Source: a methanogenic archaeon ISO4-H5 (GTDB lineage Archaea > Thermoplasmatota > Thermoplasmata > Methanomassiliicoccales > Methanomethylophilaceae). Taken from it: 64,000 nucleotides of DNA. The stretch spans positions 1,054,001-1,118,000 of the forward strand of contig CP014214.1 in assembly GCA_001560915.1 (NCBI GenBank), read 5' to 3'. The notes under the pieces were generated by a model, which was not told the origin of the DNA, did not search any database, and was given only the letters and a program-made list of their open reading frames with translations. This document shows positions 3,001-30,949 of this stretch, piece after piece (position 1 is the first letter of the stretch; each line of letters opens with the position of its first letter). A program made the position numbers and the translations under genes.

Positions 3001-4250
3001 CGAGCACGCACGGATACAACTTCGGTCAGCCCAAGAAGCTGTCTGAGGACAGGGGATTCAGATGGTCCTTCCTGCTCACGCAGGACAACGTGGTGCTCAA
3101 CGTGAAGTACAAGGACATCTCCGTGAAGATCGACTTCTATGTCAACGGCGTATTCGTCGATCCGACCGGAGCCAACCACGTCAGAGTGTACTCCGAAGAT
3201 TTGAGTTACGATGCATTCGGCCAGGACATCCCCATGTACAAGCAGGTCAAGTTCGGCAACTACGGCGACAAGGGTGTCATTTGGTACATCGATCCGGAAT
3301 GCACCGTGCCCTTCGATAACAACTCCACGTCTGGCAATTATCTATATAACCAGCTGATGACAGAGAGCTTCTCCCTCTACACCTACGACAGGTACGTCAT
3401 AGTATTCCACGACAGCGACGGAACGGGAGCGTACAAGATCATCAGAGAGCCCGTAGACGGAAGTGTGGAACTGCCCCTGTTCGGGTACGACATGGACGTG
3501 AAGCACAAGGACCACCTGCTCGCGGGATGGGCCGTGCTCTCCGGAGACGAGCATGTCTACACCTACTTCCCCCAGGGAAGCGTCCCCACGACGGACTTCC
3601 CTGCCGACAAGTGGCTGGACCTCTACGCTTACTACCTGACGGACGGTACCTACGTCGGTACCTTCAACGGCGGCGACCACAACCCGAGGATATGCAACGA
3701 CGACACGGTCCAGACGGACATAGCCAACCTGACGGTGGTGTACAGCGATACCGTGGAATTCGATCCCGACCAGACCTACACCGCCGAATCCCCCGGATGC
3801 ACCGGCAACTACACCATCCGCCACCACACCGATGAAACACAGAGGGTTCACTACTGGTGCAGGATCACCGTCGGCGGCGAGTACTACACCATGGTCGGCA
3901 CTTTCAGCGTGGATATCAACACCCTGCAGATGTTCGTCATCGCCCCGTCCGCCTACAAGATGCACGACGGAACGGCCCTGGAGCTCGGTGACCCAGCATC
4001 CAGCATCCAGATGCGTTCCATCGACGGTACCGTCCTACCCGCAACGATCCTAGACTGTTTCAGCTCCGTCGCATACAACACAAGCGAAGGATACCGCAGC
4101 TCCCTAAAAGACATCGGAACCTTCAAGACCGGTGCGTCGCTGACCACCGCCGAGGGAGTGGACCTGACCGACTTCACCATCAAATACATCGACGGTACGA
4201 TCACCGTTTACTCGGAAGAGTCCGTCAGAAGCGAGACTAGGGGGTGGTGA
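3..4250 (+). CDS. Giant adhesin-like surface protein, N-terminus outside window
   Basis: Extracellular, probably cell-surface protein of unknown ligand. The frame stays open upstream of the ATG at 9, so the real start and signal peptide lie outside the window; about 1,415 residues are visible. Two homologous Ig-like modules of about 110 residues lie in tandem (about residues 715-827 and 845-957), each with the pattern sGLP..VTY and a terminal kl.v.VS strand. Around residues 1128-1212 there is an InlB-type (Listeria-Bacteroides) repeat, recognised by GW, then LYAYY. The protein is rich in Tyr, Thr, Ser and Asp and poor in Cys. No C-terminal membrane anchor is visible, so attachment may be N-terminal or by a partner. 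The next gene starts one base after the stop, so the two are probably co-expressed. The exact family is unknown. Confidence 0.8.
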   Translation, partial: ELMGDLTVDIEGRVDFSFYVLTARITDATTDGSTVVDHCSIPEGWQIINRVLLVDEHGNEVLRVSKYTGAIKDYIDREIDQGGAIINNPEDMIPPVRFTVAPGYFFNIYEGFPDEVSGVDQFVVNDINRYPYGTTLYGESFSGRFDLNWTRYWKPADVVVHIAPIAPEVKYAVDSPGSGEDWTATANIPYGSAFGLDTRTTDLESYLTQHSISKHVSSWKYPDGRMAVSTDVFGPETAVRLGLGGTPVIDGTTLFDQYGNKYNSASESDLEYYIVYKTVNNVESKYKIDGSDYYIWVNNQWESCDPVNLCYFKDGDNKYVLQGGEYRCFYIADSYCEIDAVITAAVEKPIAVKVMTENLSGGYDVTSSVNSFMLTEDSSTYTGTFPVEDISGYSFGTVVLEAAGGITVTSSAVIVDGHITGVLMTLDGWTDSIAADIRFDLNTADLVWDKVWESDPTAGETPKVTANGWTYDSVTHKMTKSGVKYGQEVLMPYMNYPETDIVGWTVGGNAVGEYEDDMYKLTYTGSVPHFKMWNGSEWVDCDDIEGYHFHIYIDGAYLHDSQFVLSNGVFVRVGEGPVPPETYTLVESGEYEGKYVDTFGNYWNDSQGNSLYEYHVFRKNPLRFTYAIEPSDSGTVSLDAVYHVDNVDITFTTFKSKFISTGYQSMTFSIPQGSALTVEQIAQLALELTTDGKYNGSQFLGWWNGDHQFNVKEVTSIPVTVSSTSTDNAISADVGPVSESQKVGLASGSPFTFTVTVRGMSTSSINDVVLEITGLPEGVTYTTAWVSGTTDTVLSVTVTGEVEFGTKLTVYVSTSEPGEIFSSDTTFLAKWEIVYLDFLFGQDMEYTEINATVTADSGDNTITVAQGTVNNTDDVGIAYSSPFIFDLTITGMESRAKADICLCISGLPDSVTYDFEVTSSLGAADTVLRVTVTGTVAAGTELKIWVSAVTAGVDVSATQDSSVDILSYGEPNRVLYNSEIIMTIRPPSGKTIDYEATIAASTHGYNFGQPKKLSEDRGFRWSFLLTQDNVVLNVKYKDISVKIDFYVNGVFVDPTGANHVRVYSEDLSYDAFGQDIPMYKQVKFGNYGDKGVIWYIDPECTVPFDNNSTSGNYLYNQLMTESFSLYTYDRYVIVFHDSDGTGAYKIIREPVDGSVELPLFGYDMDVKHKDHLLAGWAVLSGDEHVYTYFPQGSVPTTDFPADKWLDLYAYYLTDGTYVGTFNGGDHNPRICNDDTVQTDIANLTVVYSDTVEFDPDQTYTAESPGCTGNYTIRHHTDETQRVHYWCRITVGGEYYTMVGTFSVDINTLQMFVIAPSAYKMHDGTALELGDPASSIQMRSIDGTVLPATILDCFSSVAYNTSEGYRSSLKDIGTFKTGASLTTAEGVDLTDFTIKYIDGTITVYSEESVRSETRGW

Positions 4251-28668: not shown

Positions 28669-29118
28669 TCAAAATGCTGTGGGGATCGGCACCGGAACCA
28701 CACCGTGGGCTGCATTCACCTCATCAACCCAGAAGTCAATCTCCTCATCCGGAAGCCCAAGATACTGGGCGACACTGAGAAGATACAAGGTGAACTAGTA
28801 AGGCACGCTGTCCTGATCCACGATCGTGTATATCGAACGGGACCTGCACTTGGAATGCACCATGGACTGAAGCTTGGGCACGTCCGCGTCCTTGGAGATC
28901 TTCTTGGTCCAACCGGTGAATCCCTGACGGCACACCTCATTGCGGAGGCCCTCTCTCTGGGCGGAACCCATGATCATGGCGACCCTGCGTCTCTCTCCGC
29001 GATGGGTTTCGATAACCAACAAATCAGTAGTGAAGTCTGCATCTAACTCGAAGGTAGCTCCGTCACAACCGACCGTCATGCGGAAGTGATACCTTTCGAG
29101 GTCTCCCGCTTTTATCAT
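28669..29118 (-). CDS. Unknown protein with in-frame TAG at codon 108 (pyrrolysine or nonsense)
   Basis: A gene of unrecognised family. ATG at 29118 is followed by 107 sense codons, then TAG (28795-28797), then 41 more sense codons to TGA at 28669-28671. If TAG is read, the product has 149 residues; the second part starts FTLYLLSVAQ and contains DEEIDFWVDEV, with normal protein-like composition. The TATA-like ATTAATATATA lies about 25 bases upstream, so the transcript probably begins near the ATG. No other gene assigned here ends with TAG. Alternatives are an ordinary TAG stop at 107 residues, or a recent nonsense mutation. Confidence 0.55.
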
Positions 29119-29154
29119 GTGTTAATGATTGAGTCAGTATATATTAATGGACAA

Positions 29155-29478: not shown

Positions 29479-29562
29479 AAAAGTCGCTGGAAAAACGTGC
29501 AGAATTCGTAAAAAGTCGCTGGAAAAACGTGCAGAATTCCTAAAAAGTCGCTTGAAAAATGT
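29479..29562. repeat. Tandem direct repeat, period 32 bp, about 2.6 copies
   Basis: Copies start at 29479, 29511 and 29543. The first two share 29 identical bases (beginning AAAAGTCGCTGG and ending CAGAATTC) plus a three-base variable end. The third stops after about 20 bases with two changes. The period is not a multiple of three and no spacers are present. It ends 28 bases before the AAA ATPase start. Confidence 0.85.
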
Positions 29563-29590
29563 TTTAGTATCGGAAAGCAGATGTCTGAAT

Positions 29591-30949
29591 GTGTTCAGAA
29601 GAAAGATTATCGATGCCCTTTCGGAATGGAAGAATTCCGGACTTTGTAAGAAGAAAGCAGCAATAGTCAAGGGACTCAGGCAGATCGGCAAGACCGTTGC
29701 GGTGAAAGAATTCGCCAGAAGCAACTATGATAATGTGGTCTACGTAGACTTTAAAAAGACCACATCTGCCAAAGCCGCTTTCGAAGGAGACATCGATATC
29801 GATAGGATAACGATGAGGATTACTGCAGTATTGCCCGATGCTAAATTCGTTCCGGGGCATACCGTGATTATACTTGACGAAATCCAGGAATGCGCAAGAG
29901 CACGTTTCAGTATCAAAGCATTCATCGAAGACGGGCGTTATGACCTGATAGCGACGGGTTCCCTCCTGGGAATCAGGGGCTATAACCGCAAAGACCGTGA
30001 CATACCTGTCGGCTTCGAACACACGATACGCATGTATCCGATGGACTTCGAGGAATTCCTCTGGGCCAAAGGCGTATCACAGCAGATCATAGATTACATC
30101 AAAGACTGTTTTTCAGGCAAAAGAACTGTGGACGACCCAATCCACTCAGTCATGAAAAGACACTTTCAGGAATACGTATGCGTCGGAGGAATGCCCTCCG
30201 TTGTCAGCACGTTCATCGAGAAGAACGATATGAATACCGTCAGAGCCGAACAGCAGGACCTGATCGAGCAATATCGCGATGATTTCGGAAGATATCTCGA
30301 TGAGAACGAGAACGAAGTCACAGACACAGAAATGATGGGGTATATCAACCAGGTGTTTGACTCAATACCTGCTCAGCTGAGTAAGGAGAACAAAAAATTC
30401 CAATACAGCGTTTTGTCTAAAAACGCCAGGGGCAGAACGTATGCGGGCGCCATACAATGGCTAGCGGATTACGGTCTGATCAACAAATCATATAACCTGT
30501 CCTCACTGGAGCTCCCTTTGAACGGAAACAAGGACGATTCCGTATTCAAGATCTACATGGCAGATACTGGACTGTTCGTTTCGATGCTGGATCGCGGAAC
30601 CTATGCCGATATACTGTCAGGAAACCTGGAGACATACAAAGGGGCTATTTTCGAGAATGTCATCTCAGATATCCTCAGCAAGAATGGGGTAAAACTGTTC
30701 TATTACCATAAAGACAGCGGACTCGAGATTGATTTCATCGCAAAACATGACAGGAAAGCCTGCCTGATAGAGGTCAAATCCAACACGGGGAACACAAAAT
30801 CGGCAAAGACCGTTCTCGGTGACAAAAAGAACTACGACGTCGAACTCTGCTACAAGCTGGGGAACTACAATGTCGGTTTCATGAACGGCATACTCACGCT
30901 ACCGGATTATATGGCGCCTTTGGTAGCCAAAGAACTTTCTGATGAGTGA
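29591..30949 (+). CDS. AAA ATPase with DUF4143 C-terminal domain
   Basis: A 452-residue predicted P-loop ATPase of the AAA_14/DUF4143 group. An altered Walker A GLRQIGKT (near residue 36), Walker B TVIILDEIQEC and the sensor ATGSLLG are present. The C-terminal half has the restriction-nuclease-like fold signature EIDFIAKHD...CLIEVKSN. I chose GTG 29591 because its product begins FRRKIID, the usual N-terminus; the TTG at 29552 lies inside the tandem repeat. Such genes are widespread in archaea, often in many copies, with unclear function (possibly mobile or defence related). Codon use looks more AT-rich than in neighbours. Confidence 0.85.
   Translation: MFRRKIIDALSEWKNSGLCKKKAAIVKGLRQIGKTVAVKEFARSNYDNVVYVDFKKTTSAKAAFEGDIDIDRITMRITAVLPDAKFVPGHTVIILDEIQECARARFSIKAFIEDGRYDLIATGSLLGIRGYNRKDRDIPVGFEHTIRMYPMDFEEFLWAKGVSQQIIDYIKDCFSGKRTVDDPIHSVMKRHFQEYVCVGGMPSVVSTFIEKNDMNTVRAEQQDLIEQYRDDFGRYLDENENEVTDTEMMGYINQVFDSIPAQLSKENKKFQYSVLSKNARGRTYAGAIQWLADYGLINKSYNLSSLELPLNGNKDDSVFKIYMADTGLFVSMLDRGTYADILSGNLETYKGAIFENVISDILSKNGVKLFYYHKDSGLEIDFIAKHDRKACLIEVKSNTGNTKSAKTVLGDKKNYDVELCYKLGNYNVGFMNGILTLPDYMAPLVAKELSDE

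Follow-up and report, generated by a model that had tools for sequence, protein, structure and literature searches.

The question raised by this locus is whether a TAG codon lying inside a small reading frame terminates the gene or is translated. The frame, hereafter gene X (28669–29118, minus strand), was found in the window, that is, the whole 64,000-nucleotide stretch of DNA analysed here. It opens with the ATG at 29118, meets TAG at codon 108 (28795–28797), and continues over 41 sense codons (28672–28794, codons 109–149) to a TGA at 28669–28671, exactly as described in the initial annotation. With TAG read as pyrrolysine (Pyl), the 22nd amino acid, the product would have 149 residues and the predicted junction is SIYTIVDQDSVPY-O-FTLYLL, whereas a 107-residue form would end at DSVPY. 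The tail had a weakly positive coding score (+3.6 with our own codon-model gene caller). At the local stop density, 41 codons would remain open past a stop with a chance of approximately 0.31, so that the run alone proves nothing; the proof comes from a homologue.

The sister species RUG13270, which belongs to the same genus, carries a full-length homologue of 149 residues, 79% identical and without a stop, in which codon 108 is GAG (Glu), one base away from TAG. In the head of the protein 86 of 107 residues were identical (dN 0.143). The tail showed 32 identical residues out of 41, and 24 of its 35 base differences were at third codon positions; the dN of 0.145 and the saturated dS indicate purifying selection downstream of the TAG, in a pairwise comparison with a GAG-bearing sequence only. 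No frameshift and no second stop interrupted the tail, which by these comparisons reads as real protein sequence, as conserved as the head. As the comparison involves only two sequences, one of them with a sense codon at position 108, the conservation may date largely from before the TAG arose. The search for homologues that the initial annotation had proposed thus returned one that reads on, and none ending at the TAG was found. The first 60 codons (28939–29118, minus strand) displayed few differences from RUG13270 even at synonymous positions, with a dS of 0.36, compared to saturation in the tail; constraint on the nucleic acid or recombination are possible causes.

Beyond RUG13270, no homologue was accepted in scans of the order, the phylum, GTDB, and viral sequences, and weak distant matches (E 9.5e-4 over 55 residues; 0.005 with 23% identity; 0.0096) were treated as chance. 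A further 12 genomes of the genus gave no match to X. The neighbouring LigT gene was present in 13 of 13 genus mates and X lay beside it in RUG13270 only, which leaves the change between GAG and TAG without polarity. The protein had been described as of no known family and not a methylamine methyltransferase, in agreement with searches of Pfam and NCBIfam, which gave no family match, and none to MtmB, MtbB, or MttB in particular. Comparison with solved structures returned nothing below E 0.26, a single unnamed PHROGs family appeared at E 0.029 for one member only, and an AlphaFold2 model built from the two sequences had a mean pLDDT of 40, too low to be usable. X is a small orphan gene, real, lineage-restricted, and protein-coding. 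The TTAATATA box at 29140–29147 (minus strand), 22–29 nucleotides upstream of the ATG and identical in RUG13270, is a candidate archaeal TATA box, which would act as the promoter element of a leaderless transcript. The adjoining gene for an AAA_14/DUF4143 ATPase (29552–30949, plus strand) was missing at the corresponding place in RUG13270 and looks like an insertion on the 5' side of X.

The methanogenic archaeon ISO4-H5, the sheep-rumen methanogen of the order Methanomassiliicoccales from which the window derives, possesses the full pyl set (pylT, pylS, pylB, pylC, and pylD), for which a check had been suggested at the outset. PylS scored above the family cut-off in a profile search. The ORFs following pylS match pylB, pylC, and pylD in size and order, and we take them to be these genes from their order and sequence content. 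The pylT gene, a tRNA-Pyl with a CUA anticodon, is not reported by ARAGORN or Rfam; it was located at genome position 1416676–1416746 via its anticodon arm and a near-identical copy in RUG13270. The sister also possesses pylS, and the core of its pylT is identical to that of ISO4-H5. Two mtmB genes, each with a TAG, were present upstream of the pyl genes.

Among the 67 genes called in the window with our codon-model gene caller, 54 ended with TGA, 11 with TAA, and 2 with TAG, one of the latter being X. The other (3342–3965, minus strand) matched no family, its translation is rich in V, G, and D, and it is probably an antisense artefact. The avoidance of TAG as a stop, which the initial annotation had expected of a member of the Methanomassiliicoccales, was therefore confirmed: if TAG were used at its 19% share of stop triplets, finding none in 65 genes would have a p value of about 1e-6. 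A sample of 424 kb, made of the window plus 18 stretches of 20 kb and treated with a simple gene caller of our own, yielded 382 called ORFs, 14 of them ending with TAG. In eight cases the coding sequence goes on past the TAG, as a long extension or a conserved tail (two mtmB genes, mtbB, a phosphoglucose/phosphomannose isomerase (PGI/PMI), a geranylgeranyl reductase, a glycosyltransferase, an LRR protein, and X), and Pfam domains span the TAG in six of the eight. Two others, one encoding a transposase and one resembling adenylate kinase, had genuine-looking ends, and the remaining four were short or non-homologous ORFs. The ISO4-H5 genome paper (PMC5011839) counts an adenylate kinase as amber-containing. 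TAG is thus rare as a terminator, with about 2 credible ends for roughly 375 genes in 424 kb.

Comparison between species gave the strongest evidence. In the geranylgeranyl reductase gene, a TAG at codon 249 was common to three species, ISO4-H5, RUG13270, and G044 (orthologues at L058 1501–2721, L059 71–1291, and L060 1501–2721), and the codon specifies Lys, Gln, or Arg in other members of the genus. Over the 158 codons that follow, dN/dS was 0.05–0.08 in pairs where both sequences carry the TAG. A TAG shared by three species, followed by a segment under such constraint, implies that this lineage translates through UAG, and its presence in the three species shows that UAG codons can be kept once gained. 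To prove a stable use of Pyl outside methyltransferases, this gene would serve better than X. In a GT4 glycosyltransferase, TAG71 was common to ISO4-H5 and RUG13270, with a dN/dS of 0.04 in the tail, both sequences carrying TAG. The GT4 orthologue of another member of the genus, G043 (L081), has an independent in-frame TAG elsewhere, at query residue 179.

We propose, with a probability of roughly 0.83, that X is a lineage-restricted coding gene whose UAG108 is read as sense by tRNA-Pyl(CUA) and PylS, leading to a 149-residue Pyl protein together with some 107-residue product. In this model, tRNA-Pyl charged by PylS would decode UAG108, and Pyl would stand where RUG13270 has Glu. The release factor aRF1 of ISO4-H5 retains the NIKS, YxCxxxF, and GGQ motifs, so that some termination at UAG is possible and a termination product is expected; tRNA-Pyl would compete at UAG108 with this apparently normal factor. 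Reviews describe Pyl insertion as such a competition, for which a cis signal is not required (PMC8211752, PMC9499178), and decoding in X would likewise involve no obligatory cis element. Since the site tolerates both GAG and TAG, one base apart, Pyl probably has no catalytic role in X and would most likely be a substitution tolerated by a small protein that is otherwise ordinary. We infer Pyl insertion in X, how efficient it may be, and the neutrality of the GAG/TAG change.

It is improbable that UAG108 is instead a plain stop created by a fresh nonsense mutation, in which case ISO4-H5 would be losing X and making nothing but the 107-residue form. The sole homologue has no TAG, the gene may be dispensable as it was not found in the 12 other genomes, and the ATPase neighbour seems to have been inserted on its 5' side; a very recent inactivation may stay compatible with the two sequences of X itself. 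Against this, the genome has a full pyl set, the UAG codons of other genes under purifying selection are decoded as sense, TAG almost never terminates genes in ISO4-H5, and X retains both an uninterrupted tail and its upstream TATA-like box. The nonsense mutation envisaged by the initial annotation was the wrong frame for a genome in which UAG is read as sense, and the age of the TAG is not fixable from two sequences.

Still less probable is a functional dual product, in which UAG108 would be a regulated switch with the ratio of the 107- and 149-residue forms set by the supply of Pyl, and hence by methylamines. The canonical appearance of aRF1 is in line with such a switch, as is the substrate-dependent competition of Pyl insertion with the release factor in Acetohalobium (PMC8211752), but the sister with GAG makes only the long form and no TAG-specific downstream element was present in X. 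A stem follows the TAG (z −2.2); its outer arms are also present in the GAG-bearing RUG13270, whose fold is unexceptional, so that the stem is explained by the coding sequence, and a PYLIS-type element was rejected. The broader reading, in which X needs Pyl for a function or UAG108 acts as such a methylamine-responsive switch, is equally doubtful. Errors in 454 sequencing are mostly homopolymer indels. A sequencing or assembly error hiding a true GAG is very improbable, as codon 108 is indeed one base off that of the sister but the reading frame is undisturbed before and after the TAG and the genome is closed, with 43.8x 454 coverage (PMC5011839).

The reading of UAG108 as Pyl makes X one more case of the amber habit reported for dozens of ISO4-H5 genes, and not a new system. 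The genome publication of 2016 counts 46 genes with an in-frame amber codon, 17 of them hypothetical, and X is possibly already among these 17; its list has mtmB, mtbB, the PGI/PMI, and geranylgeranyl reductase in common with our sample, and the accessible text gives neither a homologue nor a selection test (PMC5011839). In “Ca. Methanomethylophilus alvus”, 16 non-methyltransferase genes with an in-frame TAG were described in 2014, half of them with homologues lacking it, and the share of TAG among stops was 1.6% (PMC4153887); these are other genes in another species, whereas ISO4-H5 and RUG13270 are the only genomes in which X was detected. The suggestion of a new type of Pyl protein consequently holds for the Pyl candidate and falls for the novelty. 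As in MtmB, MtbB, and MttB, UAG is predicted to be decoded in X by PylS and tRNA-Pyl, but in those enzymes Pyl is a catalytic, active-site residue, whereas the site in X is Glu in the sister and gives no indication of a catalytic role.

X supports the view that UAG in this lineage behaves as an ordinary sense codon, which can arise at permissive sites through a single base change and can then be kept. Some archaea reportedly read all TAG codons as Pyl, as argued in a 2025 paper. Standard annotation cuts genes such as X short. With one short protein and a Glu/Pyl difference between close sisters, X offers a clean test case. A comparable change was visible in the two PGI/PMI genes of ISO4-H5 (L045 1501–2514 and L053 1501–2514), which are 97% identical. 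Codon 162 is TAG in one of these paralogues only and CAG in the other and in RUG13270, and this TAG is a recent one-base gain. The TAG/GAG pair of X fits this picture of single-base exchanges where the site is permissive. The two PGI/PMI paralogues form a natural Gln/Pyl pair within one cell.
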